Assembly: GCA_016202435.1 (NCBI GenBank)
Contig: JACQOR010000030.1
Location: forward strand, 1 to 35,452
DNA length: 35,452 bases
Direction: 5' to 3'
Source of the DNA: Chloroflexota bacterium
GTDB lineage: Bacteria; Chloroflexota; UBA6077; SHYK01
Within the stretch, counting starts at the first letter, position 1. Every line of letters begins with the position of its first letter. This document shows, piece after piece, positions 28,322-35,452 of this stretch. Both the position numbers and the translations under genes were made by a program. Under the pieces are notes generated by a model that saw only the letters and a list, made by a program, of their open reading frames with translations, did not search any database and was not told where the DNA came from.

Positions 28322-30412
28322 TTACGTTGGCTTGCTGGCCAGGGCTACCTGGTAGGGAACGTCCACAACCACCGTATTCGGACGAAAGAAGAGCGCGAGC
28401 TTGAGACGGAGAGCCGTCTGGTTGTGCAGCGGGTATTCCCAGAAATGATGCGGCACGTACTCCGACAGAACCACCGCGATTTGACGATCCGGCTCCTGCC
28501 TCCGCAGCGCGTCGACGTACGCGACGATGGGCTGCACCAGAGCCCGATACGGCGACTCCACCACCACCAATGGCATCGCCCCCACCCAGCGCTCGAAGCG
28601 TCGGCTCAGGGCGTCGCCATCGGCGGGATCATCGGTCACGTGCAACGCAACGACATTGGGAGACATCGTCCGGGCGAAAGCGAGAGCATGAAGCGCGGCG
28701 CGATCCACGCGGCCAACCGGGACTACGACATTTGGCGGCCGCGCTTGCGGCAGCTCGTCGCCTCGGTCCGGGGTGAGTGCATCTTCGACTTTCCAGTAGT
28801 GGGTTTGAATGGCCCACATGAGCCCGATGAGCGCCGGGATGAGCACCATGACCATCCAGGCCCCCAGGGCGAACTTGGACACGCCCACGACGACCATCAC
28901 CGTCCCCGTGGCCGTGGCTCCCAGGCCGTTTACTGCCGCGCGGTAGTGCCAGCCCGACTCGCGCAGCGTCCACCACCGGCGCACCAGACCGAGCTGACTC
29001 AGCGTGAAGGCCAGGAACACGCCGACTGTGTAGAGCGGGATGAGCCCGGTCACGCTTCCCCCGTAGGCGATGATCAGCAGGATCGAAAGCGCGGCCAGGA
29101 CCACGATGCCAGAGGTGAATGCCAGCCGGTCCCCGCGAGATTGGAAGGGCCGGGGTAGATACCGATCCCGGGCAAGAATGCTGGCCAGGCGGGGGAAGCC
29201 GTTGAAGGCGGTATTGGCGGCCAGGATTAGGAGCACCGCCGTCGAGAATTGAATGAGCAGGTAGTAAGGAGTACCGGTCCCGACAAGGGTTCGGGCGATC
29301 TGGCTGACGACCGTTTCCACCTCCTCGGGATCCGGGACAATGCCCAACTGCCCCGAGATGAAGCTCATCAGCAAGAAGATCGTGCCGAAGAGCGCGCCCA
29401 TGGCCACCAGGACGGCCTGGGCGTTGGGCACTTCGGGCGGCTTGAAGGCCGGGACGCCGTTGGAGACCGCCTCTGTGCCCGTCAGGGCGACCGAACCCGA
29501 AGCGAAGGCTCGCAGTACTAGCAGCAGGGCGAGTGGCTCGGCTCCGTGCCCTGTCATCCACTCCGGAGGAGCCGAATACTCCGGCAATGTGCCAGTAAAC
29601 GTCTGGAACGAGCCATACCCCAACAGACCCACCATGGCGATCACATAGACGTAGGTCGGAGCCGCAAGGATATTTCCAGATTCGCGGACCCCGCGCAGGT
29701 TCAGGATCGTCATGACCACCACCACGGCAGCCGAGATGGCCACCCGCTGGCTGAAGAGTTCGGGAAACGCCGAAGTGATGGCCGCGGTGCCCGCGGAGAC
29801 CGAGACCGCGACGGTGAGTATGTAATCGGTGAGCAGCGCCGCCGCCGCTGCCAAACCCGCCAGGCGCCCAAGATTCTCGTGGGCCACCACGTAGCTGCCG
29901 CCCCCATTGGGGTACGCACGAATGACCTCGCGGTAGCTCGTGACGACGATGGCGAGAATCACGACGATGGCGATGGTGAGCGGCATGGTGAGGAAGAGGG
30001 CGCTGAAACCGGCCAGGATGAGGACCCGCATGACTTCCTCGGTGGCATACGCCGAAGAAGAGATGTTGTCCGAGGCGAAGACGGCCAGGCCCTTGAGCTT
30101 GCCGAGCCGCTCTTCGATCTCCAAGTCGCTGGGGATGCGCCGACCGATCAGGATCCGCCGAGCGAGATCAGCTGCTCGCCCGCCTACACTCCTGGGCTTG
30201 AGGACTTGCTCCGTGGCGACCAGATGGCCGGAAGGTGGTCGGCTGAACTCACGGATCGCGGGCCGGACGATGCGCACGTAGCGAGTGCCCGGCAGGCGGC
30301 CGTGGACGATACGAACCTCCTCCGCGTCAGGGGCGAACCAGTGGCTCCGGGCGTCGCTCCCGCCAGCCTCAACCCCCGGGCGCGTATCTTCGCCGCCGTT
30401 CTCTTTTGCCAT
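28322..30412 (-). CDS. KimA-like K+ importer (APC superfamily) with Usp-like C-terminal domain
   Basis: This 696-residue permease has a hydrophilic N-terminus (about 90 residues, HGRLPGTRYVRIVRP), 12 helices and a soluble Usp-like tail. The membrane part follows Bacillus KimA closely: KGLAVFASDNISSSAYATEE, AYPNGGGSYVVAHENLG, DYILTVAVSVSAGTAAITSA, ILNLRGVRESG, ALTGTEAVSN, RGDRLAFTSGI and IPLYTVGVFLAFTLSQ. The residues that line the K+ site in KimA, as I recall them (Asp of SSDxxSSxAY and its Tyr, Asp-Thr-Ser of DYILTVAVS, Thr-Glu of LTGxEA, Tyr of IPLY), are all present. The C-terminal domain has HNQTALRLKLALFFRPNTVVV. ATG 30412 is the start. It is a paralogue of the next gene upstream. Confidence 0.82.
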   Translation of the reverse strand: MAKENGGEDTRPGVEAGGSDARSHWFAPDAEEVRIVHGRLPGTRYVRIVRPAIREFSRPPSGHLVATEQVLKPRSVGGRAADLARRILIGRRIPSDLEIEERLGKLKGLAVFASDNISSSAYATEEVMRVLILAGFSALFLTMPLTIAIVVILAIVVTSYREVIRAYPNGGGSYVVAHENLGRLAGLAAAAALLTDYILTVAVSVSAGTAAITSAFPELFSQRVAISAAVVVVMTILNLRGVRESGNILAAPTYVYVIAMVGLLGYGSFQTFTGTLPEYSAPPEWMTGHGAEPLALLLVLRAFASGSVALTGTEAVSNGVPAFKPPEVPNAQAVLVAMGALFGTIFLLMSFISGQLGIVPDPEEVETVVSQIARTLVGTGTPYYLLIQFSTAVLLILAANTAFNGFPRLASILARDRYLPRPFQSRGDRLAFTSGIVVLAALSILLIIAYGGSVTGLIPLYTVGVFLAFTLSQLGLVRRWWTLRESGWHYRAAVNGLGATATGTVMVVVGVSKFALGAWMVMVLIPALIGLMWAIQTHYWKVEDALTPDRGDELPQARPPNVVVPVGRVDRAALHALAFARTMSPNVVALHVTDDPADGDALSRRFERWVGAMPLVVVESPYRALVQPIVAYVDALRRQEPDRQIAVVLSEYVPHHFWEYPLHNQTALRLKLALFFRPNTVVVDVPYQVALASKPT

Positions 30413-30612
30413 GCGACTCCCCTCAGTGAGCCTATGGCTATTCTCGACGGCCTTTGCTCAACGGCTGGTCAACGCGGCATGGCACCACGTCTCAATAAGA
30501 AGTCAAGAAACGAAGGGGCGAGTTTCCGACGCACCCTGCATGATGGCGCGTCGCGTTGGCAAGGTGGGGTCGGGCCGCAACGGCTGCCCAGATCGCCTGC
30601 CCGGCGAGGCGA

Positions 30613-32760
30613 TCAACGCGCGGCTGCGGGCGTCTCCTGCTCCTCGGAAAGGTGATAGGGAACATCGGCAACCACGACGCCCGGCCGAAAGAAGAGGGAG
30701 AGCTTGAGTCGCAGCGCCGTCTGATTGTGGAGGACATGCTCCCAAAAGTGTCGCGGAACAAACTCGGCCAGCACCACCACGATGAGCTCGTCGGGGTACT
30801 GCCGACGCACTGCCTCAATGTACGCGAGCAGCGGTGAGATCAGCGCCCGGAAGGGAGACTCGACGATGATGAGTTCGACGTCGCCACCGGACCGCTCCCA
30901 GCGCTGCTTCATTCCCTCCGCCTCGGCGGGGTCGTCGGTCACGTGCACCGCCCGCACCTCAGGGGAAATGGACTTCGCGAAGGAGAGCGCCTGGAGCGTC
31001 GGCCGGTCGAGTCGCGCGATCGGCACGATGACCACTGGCGCTCGCGACTCAGGCACTGTCACGTTTGGCCATCCGGGCGTGAGCGCATCCTCGACCCGGC
31101 GGTAGTGGCTCTGGATCGCCCACATGAACGCGATCAGGACGGGGATCGCCACCAGGACCATCCAGGCGCCCAGCGCAAACTTTGAGACTCCCACGATGAT
31201 CAGAACGACACCCGTCGCGAGCGCCCCGAATCCGTTCAGGAACGATCGAGCCTTCCAGCCGCTCTCGCTTTCTCGGAGCTGCCACCAATGCCGGACGAGA
31301 CCCATCTGGCTCAGGGTAAAGGCCAGGAATACGCCGACGGTATAGAGCGGGATCAAGCCGGCCACACTTCCCTCATAAGCGGCTATCAGGGCTGCGCCCG
31401 CCGCGGCCAGGACGACGATTCCCGTCGTGAAGGCGAGACGGTCGCCGCGGCTCTGGAACTGGCGAGGGAGATAGCGGTCCTTGGCAAGGATGCTCGCCAG
31501 CCGGGGGAAGCCGTTGAAGGCGGTGTTGGCGGCGAGGAGCAAGAGCACGGCGGTGGCGAACTGGATCAGCAGGTAGTAGGGCGTTCCGCCGCCCACCAGC
31601 GTCCGTGTCATCTGACTCACGACGGTCTCGGCCTCGTGCGGATCGGGAACGATTCCCATCCGGCCGGAGAGGAAGCTCATGCCCAGGAAGATCGTCGCAA
31701 AGAGGGTACCCATCATGACGAGAATCGCCTGGGCGTTGGGCACTTCCGGCCGCCGGAACGACGGAACGCTATCCGCGACCGCCTCCGTTCCAGTGAGCGC
31801 CACGGACCCGGAAGCGAAAGCGCGAAGGACGAGAAGCAACGCGAGTGGCTCGGCTCCATGAGACTCAAGCCACTCGGGCGGAGCGGAGTACTCTGGCAGC
31901 GTGCCCATGAAAAGACGGAGGAGCCCGAACCCCAGGAGACCGAGTATCGAAAGCACGTAGACATAGACGGGGGCAGCGAAAATACTGCCCGACTCTCGGA
32001 TCCCCCGCAGATTGAGGACCGTCATCACCACCACGACGCCGACGGCTATCTGAACCTTGTTTTCGAGCAACCCTGGGAACGCGGACGTGATGGCGGAAGT
32101 ACCGGCCGAGATCGATACGGCGACGGTCAAGGTGTAGTCGGTGAGGAGGGCGGCGGCCGCGGTCATCCCGGCTAGCTTGCCGAGATTCTCGTGGGCCACC
32201 ACGTAGCTGCCGCCGCCCTGCGGGTAGGCTCGGATCACCTCCCGGTAGCTGATAACGACGATGGCCAGGATGGTGACGACCGCCAGGGTGATAGGCATGG
32301 CCAGGGTCAGCGCCGCCACTCCGGCGAGCACCAGCACGCGCATCGTCTCTTCGGTCGCGTACGCGGACGACGAAATATTGTCTGAAGCGAAAACCGCCAG
32401 GCCCTTGACCTTGCCTAGGCGCTCCTCGCCTTCGAACTCACTCCGAATCCGCGATCCGATGAGGAATCGGCGCAGCAGATCGGCGGCTCCCCCGATGAAC
32501 CCTTTGGGTGCCAGCACTCGCTCGGTAGCAACGAGGTAGCCGGGCGTTTGTCGACTGAACTCCCGCGCCCTGGGGCGTACGATGCGGACGTAACGGGTTC
32601 CGGGAAGGCGACCGCGAACGACACTGACGTCCTCGCCTTCGGTATCGACCCAGTGCTCTTCGACACGGCCCTGAGCGCCGTCGGCCGACGGAGTGACCGG
32701 TAGTTGTCGATTGCGCTCCCGCCGGACGCGGTTCCTGCCGGGAGGGTCGTTGGCAGACAT
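30613..32760 (-). CDS. KimA-like K+ importer (APC superfamily), second paralogue
   Basis: The 715-residue paralogue of the downstream gene has the same layout: an N-terminal cytosolic segment (RLPGTRYVRIVRPRAREFSR, then VATERVL), the K+-type core ASDNISSSAYATEETMRVL, AYPQGGGSYVVAHENLG, DYTLTVAVSISAGTSAITSA, LTGTEAVADS and IPLYTVGVF, and a C-terminal Usp-like domain with HNQTALRLKLSLFFRPGVVV. One difference is the Ile/Thr change in DYTLT. It starts at ATG 32760, 103 bases after kdpE on the same strand, placing K+ uptake directly behind the KdpDE system. The gap carries direct repeats. The N-terminal about 90 residues are longer than in Bacillus KimA. Paralogues differ most in the N-terminal tail and in the last helices. 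Confidence 0.83.
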   Translation of the reverse strand: MSANDPPGRNRVRRERNRQLPVTPSADGAQGRVEEHWVDTEGEDVSVVRGRLPGTRYVRIVRPRAREFSRQTPGYLVATERVLAPKGFIGGAADLLRRFLIGSRIRSEFEGEERLGKVKGLAVFASDNISSSAYATEETMRVLVLAGVAALTLAMPITLAVVTILAIVVISYREVIRAYPQGGGSYVVAHENLGKLAGMTAAAALLTDYTLTVAVSISAGTSAITSAFPGLLENKVQIAVGVVVVMTVLNLRGIRESGSIFAAPVYVYVLSILGLLGFGLLRLFMGTLPEYSAPPEWLESHGAEPLALLLVLRAFASGSVALTGTEAVADSVPSFRRPEVPNAQAILVMMGTLFATIFLGMSFLSGRMGIVPDPHEAETVVSQMTRTLVGGGTPYYLLIQFATAVLLLLAANTAFNGFPRLASILAKDRYLPRQFQSRGDRLAFTTGIVVLAAAGAALIAAYEGSVAGLIPLYTVGVFLAFTLSQMGLVRHWWQLRESESGWKARSFLNGFGALATGVVLIIVGVSKFALGAWMVLVAIPVLIAFMWAIQSHYRRVEDALTPGWPNVTVPESRAPVVIVPIARLDRPTLQALSFAKSISPEVRAVHVTDDPAEAEGMKQRWERSGGDVELIIVESPFRALISPLLAYIEAVRRQYPDELIVVVLAEFVPRHFWEHVLHNQTALRLKLSLFFRPGVVVADVPYHLSEEQETPAAAR

Positions 32761-32785
32761 ATCAACGTAGTGTCAACAAAAGCCG

Positions 32786-32823
32786 GGGAAAACTCAACAG
32801 AAACTTGAAACTCGGGAGAACTC
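32786..32823 (-). promoter_or_regulatory. Direct repeats upstream of the KimA-like gene, possible operator
   Basis: On the - strand GAGTTCTCCC and GAGTTTTCCC occur 28 bases apart, with a third GAGTTTC between them. They sit 26-63 bases before the ATG, in the gap after kdpE. Spacing and position would suit a response regulator site; the link to KdpE is an inference. Confidence 0.3.
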
Positions 32824-32863
32824 GTGGTGGGGCCGCCTGGGACTGATTCGGTTTGGGCTTATG

Positions 32864-33568
32864 CTAATCCTCTTGGGCGAGCAACCGGTAGCCGACCCCG
32901 GGAACGGTCGTCAGGTACCGGGGATGGCGCGGGTCAGGCTCCAGCTTCTTCCGCAATCTCGCCATGTAGACGTGAAGATAGTGCTCCTCCGAGCCGTATT
33001 CCGGGCCCCACACCTGCTGGAGCAACATCCGGTCCGTGAGGACGCGGTTTGGGTAGCGGATGAATGCTTTGAGCAAGTCGAATTCGTTCGGCGTGAGATG
33101 CACCTCCGCGCCTTCGACGCTCACGAGCCGCCTCCCCAGGTCTACCGTGAAGTCGCCCGTACGGAAAACCGCCTCCGCCCCACCGGATGGCCCGGCCGCG
33201 TGCCGCAGCGCAACGCGCACCCGGGCCAGCAGCTCATCGACGCCAAAGGGCTTCGTGAGGTAGTCATCCGCACCGAGGTCGAGCGCGGCAACCTTGTCCC
33301 GCTCGGTCTCGCGCACCGAGAGCACGATGATCGGCGTTGCAGACCGCTTGCGAATCTCGCGGATCACATCGAGCCCGTCCAGATCGGGAAGTCCCAGGTC
33401 TAGCAAGATGACGTCGGGTTGTCCGTGAGCCGCCCGTTCCAGGGCCTGGAGACCTGACTCCGCCGTCTCGACCTGCCAGCCGTGGCCCATCAAGACGGTC
33501 CGAACCGCTCGGAGGATCGCGGTTTCGTCGTCGACGACGAGAACCTTAGCTCCGTTCGGCGCGGTCAC
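32864..33568 (-). CDS. kdpE: Response regulator KdpE
   Basis: This is an OmpR/PhoB-type response regulator, 234 residues from GTG 33568. The receiver domain has acidic DD at 13-14, phosphoacceptor Asp57 (VILLDLGLPDLDG) and Lys at about 106 (ADDYLTKPFG). The winged-helix domain (about 130-230) has LTPNEFDLLKAFIRYPNRVL, the recognition region YLHVYMARLRKKLEPDPRHP and the terminal YLTTVPGVGYRLL. Assignment to KdpE is by homology style and by partnership with the KdpD-type kinase; its GTG overlaps the kinase stop as GTGA. Normally KdpE activates kdpFABC; here the next genes downstream are KimA-like transporters. Confidence 0.9.
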   Translation of the reverse strand: MTAPNGAKVLVVDDETAILRAVRTVLMGHGWQVETAESGLQALERAAHGQPDVILLDLGLPDLDGLDVIREIRKRSATPIIVLSVRETERDKVAALDLGADDYLTKPFGVDELLARVRVALRHAAGPSGGAEAVFRTGDFTVDLGRRLVSVEGAEVHLTPNEFDLLKAFIRYPNRVLTDRMLLQQVWGPEYGSEEHYLHVYMARLRKKLEPDPRHPRYLTTVPGVGYRLLAQED

Positions 33569-35193
33569 CGGGTCACTTCAGGCAGGGACGCATGGGCGAT
33601 GGGCAGGTGAAACTTGAAGGAGGCGCCCCCTTGAGGACGGTTCTCGCACCAGATGCGGCCGCCGTTCGCCTGGACAAACCCGCGGGCAACCGCGAGGCCA
33701 AGGCCGGTACCCGCGGCCCTGGTCGCTCCCTGACCGCGATAGAAGGGGTCGAAAAGCCGCGGCAGCGCATTTTCTGGAATTCCAGGGCCGCGATCCGCCA
33801 CCTCAACTTCAACGGCATCGCCCACCGACCGCGCACTGATCGCGATGGGCGTTCCGTGCGCCGAGTACTTGGTCGCGTTCTCAATAAGATTGAAGAGCAC
33901 CTGCTGAATCTGCACGTAGTCGAGTAGCACCGGCGGGAGGGTCGGGTCGATGTCCAGGACCAGATCCCCGAGGTGCGGGCCAAGCACAAGTGCGCCCACG
34001 ACATCATCGATGAGCGCGCCGACATCGTGCCAGGAGCGCTCGGGCTTGAGGCTCCCACTCTCGATGCGCGAAACGTCGAGCAGATTGCCCACGATTCCAT
34101 TCAGGCGCTGCGCCTCATGCTCGATCGCCTCGGCCAGCTCCCTCCGCTCATCATCGGACCAGGCTATCTCCTGCTGTCGCAAACTGCCCGCGGATGCAAC
34201 GATCGAAGCCAGCGGGGTTCTCAGGTCGTGCGAGACCGCGTGGAGGAGCGCACTCTTGGTCTCGTCCGTCCGACGAAGAATCTCCGCTTCCGTGGCTTCC
34301 TCGCCCAGTCGAATGCGTTCGACTGCCGATCCGAGCTGCGCCGCGACGGCCGAAAGGAGACGGTCGTCCGCTTCCCCGAAGCGAGTCGCACGGCTCGGAC
34401 GGACGAGCAGCAGGCTTCCAACCCGCCGACCCAGCACGGTGATCGGCACGATCAGGAGCCGCTCGTTCGCGATCACGGGCTCGCCCCCCGGCGCTTGCGG
34501 TCGAATGATCCGAACCCACCGGCTTGGAACGCTGGGCTGCCCAACGCCCGCGCCACCGGCCTCTCCGAAGACTTCGGTCGGCACCGCCGCCATCGGGTTC
34601 GCGTGTCGCAAGGATGTGGCCTCGCCCGCGGCAGCGCGAGCTTCCAGTGGTCCGTCGCTCACCTCGATGACCGCGGCTGACAGACGCAGATCGCGCCGCA
34701 GTTGATTGGCTAGCGCTTTCAGGGCACCAGCCAGGTCTGGCTCCGCCATCAAGCGAGCGACGTTGTAGAGCGCGTTCGCCTCACGCTCCCGGTGACCGGC
34801 CTCCTCGGCCCGGCGCCGCTGGCCGGCCGCAAGCTGGCCGGTCACGACCGCGGTAAGCAGGAACAGGATCAGACTTACCCATTCACCGGGATCGGCGACG
34901 GTAAGCGTGTGAACGGGCTCGACAAAGAACCAGTTAAAGGTCACAAACGCCGAGAGCGAGGCCAGGACGGCGGGACCACGACCGAACGCGCTTGCCGTGG
35001 CTAAGACCGCGAGCAGATAGAGAATCGAAACGTTCGCAAGCTGGCTCCGCCCGCCGAGGAGCCCGATCAGCCAACTGACGGCTGCCACGGTCAGTAGGGC
35101 GAAGGCGTAGCCGAAGGCTGGCAGATGGAGGATCTGTGACTCCGTTCGGAGCGCTGCCAGGTTCGGGACGGTTGGGATGCCCACAAGAAACAT
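33565..35193 (-). CDS. kdpD: Short KdpD-type sensor histidine kinase, lacking N-terminal KdpD/Usp domains
   Basis: The 542-residue kinase begins directly with the four-helix DUF4118 region of KdpD (about 28-125; FVTFNWFFVEPVHTLTVADP is the family signature), then a GAF-like domain (145-295), HisKA with the phosphoacceptor His322 (HAVSHDLRTPLASIVASAGS) and HATPase (LFNLIENATKYS N-box, DRGPGIPENALPRLFDPFYR, GTGLGLAVARGFVQANGG). Full-length KdpD has about 900 residues with a 220-residue KdpD domain and a Usp domain ahead; both are absent, and upstream DNA diverges into another gene's leader, so this is a true short form rather than a clipped annotation. K+ or osmotic sensing must therefore be done by DUF4118/GAF or a partner. 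ATG 35193 is the only start before the first helix. Confidence 0.88.
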   Translation of the reverse strand: MFLVGIPTVPNLAALRTESQILHLPAFGYAFALLTVAAVSWLIGLLGGRSQLANVSILYLLAVLATASAFGRGPAVLASLSAFVTFNWFFVEPVHTLTVADPGEWVSLILFLLTAVVTGQLAAGQRRRAEEAGHREREANALYNVARLMAEPDLAGALKALANQLRRDLRLSAAVIEVSDGPLEARAAAGEATSLRHANPMAAVPTEVFGEAGGAGVGQPSVPSRWVRIIRPQAPGGEPVIANERLLIVPITVLGRRVGSLLLVRPSRATRFGEADDRLLSAVAAQLGSAVERIRLGEEATEAEILRRTDETKSALLHAVSHDLRTPLASIVASAGSLRQQEIAWSDDERRELAEAIEHEAQRLNGIVGNLLDVSRIESGSLKPERSWHDVGALIDDVVGALVLGPHLGDLVLDIDPTLPPVLLDYVQIQQVLFNLIENATKYSAHGTPIAISARSVGDAVEVEVADRGPGIPENALPRLFDPFYRGQGATRAAGTGLGLAVARGFVQANGGRIWCENRPQGGASFKFHLPIAHASLPEVTR

Positions 35194-35220
35194 TATCGGG
35201 GTTCAGTATCTGGGTTGAGT

Positions 35221-35250
35221 TTGCCCTAGATCGCGTGTTCCGCTTAGGAT
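35221..35250 (+). promoter_or_regulatory. Probable promoter for the rightward leader RNA
   Basis: TTGCCC (35221-35226) and TAGGAT (35245-35250) are 18 bases apart. The predicted start is near 35257, just ahead of the structured leader and divergent from kdpD. Confidence 0.4.
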
Positions 35251-35269
35251 CAGTCCCAATAGCATGATA

Positions 35270-35351
35270 GGCAACCCTGGTGACGCCAGGCGGGGCGCCA
35301 CACCCGTTATCAGGTGGCTAGGTGGAGACGGCAACGGTGCCGTCTTTTTTT
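35270..35351 (+). ncRNA. Terminator-linked structured leader, candidate riboswitch or attenuator
   Basis: After the predicted start come GGCAACC, a hairpin CCTGG-TGACG-CCAGG (35276-35290), a second GC-rich stem GCCAC...GTGGC (35297-35318) and an intrinsic terminator, 56 bases before the downstream gene. GGCGCC at 35295-35299 region could pair with GGTGCC of the terminator 3' arm as an antiterminator. The sequence has some likeness to GEMM/c-di-GMP aptamers (GGTGACGC), but the usual P1b hairpin and CAAAGC are missing, so I do not assign that class. Na+-, Li+- or c-di-AMP-type elements are worth testing because the downstream gene may be an ion antiporter. Confidence 0.5.
35326..35351 (+). terminator. 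Intrinsic terminator inside the leader
   Basis: AGACGGCA-ACGG-TGCCGTCT (8 pairs) is followed by a run of seven T. It ends before the coding region, so read-through must be regulated. Confidence 0.92.
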
Positions 35352-35406
35352 GTGAGTCGCTTGTCCCAGAGAGAAGGGCGGCTTCAGAAACCGTGGGGAC
35401 CAGCTA

Positions 35407-35452
35407 ATGCACGATCTTACCGGCGATCCGGTTGGCATAGCGGCACTTTTGA
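35407..35452 (+). CDS. 5' end of a membrane transporter gene, possibly NhaD-type Na+/H+ antiporter
   Basis: ATG 35407 has GGGGA about 8 bases upstream; the frame reads MHDLTGDPVGIAALL and runs off the window. The pattern DLT-x3-VG-x-AAL resembles the N-terminus of NhaD (ArsB/NhaD superfamily) antiporters, where DLT-x-x-x-VG is followed by the first helix. Only 15 residues are visible, so this is a tentative call. It would fit the K+ uptake genes on the other strand as part of a cation-balance locus. Confidence 0.35.
   Translation, partial: MHDLTGDPVGIAALL

Follow-up and report, generated by a model that had tools for sequence, protein, structure and literature searches.

Does the right-hand end of this contig, a leader ahead of a gene cut off after 15 codons, encode a regulatory RNA, and if so, what might that RNA sense? 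The window analysed here is an entire contig (G000:C8; 35 452 bases) of a 1.76 Mb draft genome. A sequence-only reading had placed here a leader with a transcription-attenuating layout that faces away from the neighbouring genes and precedes a gene whose first residues look like NhaD, and each of these points was borne out by the sequence comparisons described below. The genes at 28322–35193, for a pair of AA_permease_2 transporters, a response regulator of the OmpR type and a DUF4118 histidine kinase, are all on the minus strand, and the leader is on the plus strand. The frame beginning with the ATG at 35407 runs without a stop through 15 codons, as far as the contig goes (MHDLTGDPVGIAALL). 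Its closest counterpart among the proteins of relatives is the N-terminus of NhaD from G001, a genome of the same family (MIDLTSHWVGIAALS; 10 of 15 residues identical), and the identity of the G001 protein is strong (NF038006). The element itself was not found in the closest NhaD-carrying relatives searched (G001, G003 and G004). The two transporters (28322–32760) are adjacent paralogues (696 and 715 aa) that may be KimA-like importers of K+, and adjoin the response regulator/DUF4118 histidine kinase pair; the DUF4118 domain is also present in KdpD.

The terminator is exactly as first described, an 8-pair stem with a 4-nt loop and seven T at 35345–35351, ahead of the start codon. It is the sole terminator-like site within 33000–35452, a region for which shuffled sequence averages 1.6, and taken alone it is therefore not significant. 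The fold energy of the single leader sequence is likewise unremarkable (z −1.1). The leader stands above chance because of its homology, in the form of the match to model R1 below, and not because of a lone terminator or its fold energy.

A DNA similarity search of relatives yielded one meaningful match to the leader, in G012 (80% over 52 bases), with the rest noise. The parts common to G012 and the window are ‘CCCGTTATC ... GCTAGGTGGAGAC’ plus the terminator. A first exact pattern was found in only three of 400 genomes and added G002; in GTDB contigs it occurred in three named records (WHTR01000010, JAUJPG010000015 and JACCXM010000021), and the matching homologue records were all Chloroflexi, Chloroflexia or Chloroflexota. 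Covariance models were needed to go further. The first of these, R1, was built from three homologues (G002, G012 and JACCXM010000021) with the window left out, and its recovery of the window element (56 bits, E 4.3e-14) is an independent confirmation. Searching the whole class turned up members in G006, G007, G009, G012 (three copies) and G014, and models R2 (10 sequences) and R3 (15 sequences) widened membership to further families and classes within the phylum Chloroflexota. The final set holds 28 members from several Chloroflexota lineages, after matches inside genes had been dropped.

Weak model matches that lay inside genes or came without the tail and terminator were discarded (L115, L116, L129, L130, L131, L146, L150, L151, L178, L179 and L182), and two pattern matches in viral contigs, both inside protein genes, were attributed to chance. 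A locus in G008 (L114, L147 and L168) was also excluded; it has the tail and terminator but is without the CCCG/UAUC pseudoknot. This divergent leader (L168; G008:C15:2850-2970), with a GGUGGAGAC tail, lies ahead of a small membrane protein and may be a variant that binds a different ligand, or may have decayed.

All 28 members share one architecture, consisting of a P1 hairpin, an H-type pseudoknot and a tail of the form GGNGGAG[A/G]C that extends into the 5′ arm of a terminator-like stem (table 1). The earlier proposal depended on covariation among homologous leaders, and the alignments of members provided it in strength: all 11 pairs of P1 and P2 (five and six, respectively) changed on both sides, standard pairs filled 93.6% of the pair cells across the 28 members (64.8% in shuffles) and the covariation score was 0.735 as against 0.212. 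Sliding the partners reduced pairing in the 28-sequence alignment to 48% or less and destroyed the signal. The two GC hairpins of the sequence-only reading do both lie upstream of the terminator, but the second (35297–35318) turned out to be one helix of the pseudoknot. The other helix, S1, joins the strand between P1 and P2 (CGGG in the window) to the complementary 5′ part of the P2 loop (CCCG). It was mostly invariant, and weakly informative, in the first 10 sequences. Across all 28, changes in one strand are matched in the other (CGGGU/ACCCG, CGGCG/CGCCG, GGGAG/CUCCU, GGAAG/CUUCC, GGGCC/GGCCC and GCGGG/CCCGC), and because S1 covaries in this way the fold is an H-type pseudoknot. In a permutation test that ignores sequence relatedness, the S1 strands scored 412 with their own partners and 352 ± 12 with permuted ones (0 of 2000 permutations reached the observed value).

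Table 1. Features of the leader and its surroundings in the window.
Feature	Position	Strand	Basis
Putative promoter, −10-like hexamer CATGAT	35263–35268	+	Comparison with relatives; tentative for the window itself
Whole RNA element	35275–35351	+	Models built on other genomes; R1, without the window, 56 bits, E 4.3e-14
P1 hairpin, CCUGG-UGACG-CCAGG	35276–35290	+	5/5 pairs changed on both sides, 10- and 28-sequence alignments
Pseudoknot helix S1, 5′ strand CGGG	35291–35294	+	Pairs with 35303–35306; permutation test
P2/pseudoknot helix S2, 5′ strand GCCAC	35297–35301	+	6/6 P2 pairs changed on both sides
Pseudoknot helix S1, 3′ strand CCCG, within P2 loop	35303–35306	+	Permutation test
Conserved pseudoknot loop UUAUC	35307–35311	+	Alignments; family consensus near UA[U/C]C
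P2/pseudoknot helix S2, 3′ strand GUGGC	35314–35318	+	Covariation in 10- and 28-sequence alignments
Conserved tail GGUGGAGAC	35321–35329	+	Family GGNGGAG[A/G]C, 28/28; final AGAC in terminator 5′ arm
Intrinsic terminator, stem 35326–35333/35338–35345, U tract 35345–35351	35326–35351	+	Sequence; stable hairpin here in nearly every member
Putative ribosome-binding site GGGGA	35395–35399	+	Sequence; tentative
First 15 codons of NhaD-like Na+/H+ antiporter	35407–35452	+	Sequence; truncated by contig end

The tail is fixed save for two positions in all 28 members (GGUGGAGAC in 18, GGAGGAGAC, GGAGGAGGC and GGUGGAGGC in three each and GGGGGAGAC in one), and the rest of the terminator is not so conserved. 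Where GAGGC replaces GAGAC, the partner strand mostly changes with it (column 74/100: AU 22, GC 5, GU 1), and a stable hairpin folds at the terminator position in nearly every member. The NhaA-linked leader of G300 (L148; G300:C4:14082-14162) keeps the stem with no U tract after it, and may act at a level other than termination. On these comparisons, the leader is a real, well-supported structured RNA family.

In most members, a −10-like hexamer lies about 2–19 nt upstream of the element (TATAAT in G161; TATACT, TAGACT, TACACT and the like elsewhere), with a summed score of 104 compared with 61 ± 7 in shuffles (0 of 1000 as high). This favours the hexamer nearer P1 in the window, CATGAT, as the probable −10 element. 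The promoter proposed from the sequence alone, TTGCCC/TAGGAT (35221–35226/35245–35250), does exist as an alternative but is weak and absent from a stricter scan. No conserved sequence was seen upstream of the element across the members. With the hexamer so near the element, the transcript preceding the switch would be only about 80–90 nt long.

The genes downstream bear on function. A cation/H+ antiporter gene follows the leader directly in 17 of the 28 members and belongs to one of five families: CPA2 (11), CPA1 (3), NhaA (1, G300), MrpA (1, G161) and NhaD (1, the window, from 15 residues). Group representatives were assigned by Pfam and NCBIfam and the remaining members by reading translations. 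The downstream genes thus share a logic of the kind that the sequence-only reading presupposed. These antiporter families have in common the ion they exchange, not their sequence, which is the chief reason for tying the putative ligand to Na+ (or Li+, H+). In a further three members (L183, L181 and L180) the next two genes form a unit, one for a CBS-domain protein and one for a CitMHS/ArsB-family transporter; for the latter, the leader suggests a role in Na+/H+ exchange. The other eight comprise NfeD (3), HflK (1) and four single cases, namely a TolB-like gene with a CPA2 gene after it that is interrupted by an insertion sequence, a methyltransferase, a sigma factor and a small protein encoded ahead of tuf. 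In G012 (L139; G012:C86:86000-101000), an insertion-sequence-like element splits the CPA2 gene that follows one leader copy; 5.6 kb from there, on the other strand, a second copy stands ahead of a sigma-70 region 2 protein. The presence of the same leader ahead of NfeD/ClpP-type and HflK (SPFH) genes (L149, L172, L177 and L145) suggests that membrane quality control is co-regulated with the antiporters, and the downstream genes together point to a common regulon for sodium or alkaline stress, with NfeD and HflK among its members. Given the eight members before other genes, the ligand could also be a general stress signal.

Does the leader belong to a known class? No Rfam 15 family matches the window. 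A scan of short stretches at 15 loci (14 members and the doubtful G008 locus), with permissive filters and E values up to 10, likewise gave no match; the three weak matches listed were to unrelated families and are attributable to chance. The known classes suggested at the outset, Na+-I, nhaA-I, nhaA-II, ydaO and GEMM, therefore fell away on the Rfam check, leaving the suggestion of a new class standing. Na+-I (DUF1646, RF03071) was unmatched in G000 and at the 15 loci, and had no match above cut-off in 101 genomes. The models for Li+-I and Li+-II (nhaA-I and nhaA-II), ydaO (c-di-AMP) and GEMM (c-di-GMP) were unmatched in the window and at the 15 loci. A literature search, with subscription papers and preprints outside its scope, found no description of the motif.

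The leader combines a conserved 5′ structure with an expression platform, as riboswitches generally do. A riboswitch function is likely, with an alkali cation the most likely ligand; we infer the identity of that ligand, the direction of switching and the switching step from the features above. The RNA would start near P1, which would fold first, followed by the H-type pseudoknot (S1 and S2) with its UUAUC loop. The last four bases of the tail are also the first of the terminator stem. With ligand bound, the tail would be held against the pseudoknot, leaving the terminator incomplete and the antiporter gene transcribed; with no ligand, the terminator would form and transcription would stop. 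Capture of the tail would have to be direct, because no conserved antiterminator helix was found (for pairing of the tail with its own upstream sequence, 4846 of 5000 permutations among members were as good). Direct tail capture is known from some small pseudoknot riboswitches. An ON switch is suggested because the tail is conserved beyond the needs of the terminator, as expected if the aptamer uses it, and because Na+-I, which lies ahead of genes of these kinds, switches them ON (PMC9337991, PMC9646797).

Taken together, we judge it rather probable that 35275–35351 holds a cis-acting candidate riboswitch whose class is outside Rfam, most likely sensing Na+, that turns its gene on through ligand-dependent tail capture. 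The ligand is possibly Li+ or another monovalent cation instead. The broader proposal is one on which we are evenly balanced: a new alkali-cation riboswitch class with a structure of its own, one more for Na+ or Li+, built on a T-box-like H-type pseudoknot, controlling NhaA, NhaD, NhaP, CPA2 and Mrp antiporters across Chloroflexota and using one purine-rich tail for both ion site and terminator. If this is true, antiporters would probably be switched on as sodium or a related ion accumulates, and this would be, as far as we have found, the first dedicated ion-sensing leader family for Chloroflexota.

Instead of a metal ion, the same RNA might sense pH or alkaline stress through a protonation-dependent or co-transcriptional change of folding, and in this way raise antiporter genes along with those for membrane quality. 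Na+/H+ antiporters help to keep pH constant under alkaline conditions, and the NfeD/SPFH-type genes that the leader also precedes are, in other bacteria, part of the response to alkaline and membrane stress. The conserved loop and tail, on the other hand, resemble a ligand site, and we consider pH sensing unlikely. That the signal is K+, c-di-AMP or another osmotic cue seems to us similarly improbable. CPA2 antiporters include K+ exporters, and the AA_permease_2-type transporters and response regulator/DUF4118 kinase pair lie divergently beside the leader in the window. Yet NhaA, NhaD, CPA1 and MrpA are typically Na+/H+ antiporters, the ydaO model is unmatched and no K+ uptake gene lies directly downstream in any of the 28 members.

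The failure to demonstrate an antiterminator helix would also fit a leader bound by a trans-acting protein, or one that is mainly a constitutive attenuator. We think either very unlikely, as the many unrelated downstream proteins speak against simple autoregulation and a plain terminator needs neither a fixed pseudoknot nor the tail.

The leader also resembles T-boxes. A T-box in the window's own genome (L090; G000:C90:8708-9029) has a stem IIA/B pseudoknot nearly identical to that of the leader (CGGGG...ACCCGUUAUC...). It reads CGGGGGCGCUACCCGUUAUCAGCGGC, with the stretch GGGGGCGCUACCCGUUAUCAGCGGC very like the leader pseudoknot, and the GGUGGA of the leader also resembles T-box sequence. T-box stem IIA/B, part of RF00230, is like the leader an H-type pseudoknot with a CCCGUUAUC loop and a UGG sequence after it. 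The leader could on these grounds be a stripped derivative, still responsive to tRNA, that has kept this pseudoknot and the acceptor-binding UGGN. However, RF00230 finds T-boxes elsewhere in G000, G002 and G012 but none at the leader loci of these genomes; with a −10-like hexamer so near, a stem I with its specifier has no room upstream; seven of 28 members have A or G in place of the U of UGGN (GGAGG or GGGGG); and no synthetase or amino-acid gene lies downstream. T-box identity was therefore rejected, for want of a model match, a stem I and a conserved UGGN, and a tRNA-responsive derivative appears highly improbable. Since the leader has no stem I, does not conserve UGG and has other target genes, none of them for amino acids, we regard the likeness as reuse or convergence of one module; it raises the question of whether a single module came to serve two signals. 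Lastly, an ordinary intergenic terminator or unrelated small RNA is barely credible. A lone terminator is indeed not rarer than chance, but the R1 match and the covariation already contradict such a reading, and the gene association and the same-strand position before start codons across 28 members also speak against it.

The reading that we prefer, an alkali-cation riboswitch acting through its tail, has parallels among known systems. In the fluoride riboswitch (crcB), the aptamer is small and pseudoknotted, its 3′ end shares bases with the terminator and a large antiterminator is absent; the leader is alike in this overlap, but differs in sequence and target genes and has no Rfam match. The Li+-I and Li+-II riboswitches (nhaA-I and nhaA-II motifs), like the leader, lie ahead of nhaA and other cation/H+ antiporter genes, and are ON switches (PMC9646797). 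A further parallel is Na+-I, which targets kefB and nhaD and activates them by preventing termination (PMC9337991, PMC9646797). It has in common with the leader its target genes (kefB-type CPA2 and nhaD), terminator attenuation, a small aptamer and, probably, the ON direction (PMC9337991). The combination that marks the Na+-I type, Na+-related transporter genes downstream together with a transcription terminator, is found at the leader too. The cores differ: that published for Na+-I has conserved A's at the P1 base and G's in the P2 loop, whereas the leader has a pseudoknot with UUAUC and GGNGGAG[A/G]C. Known RNA sensors of Na+ or Li+ are few, and the way in which RNA tells monovalent ions apart is an open structural question; if our reading is correct, an independent fold with the same targets would offer a further solution to compare.
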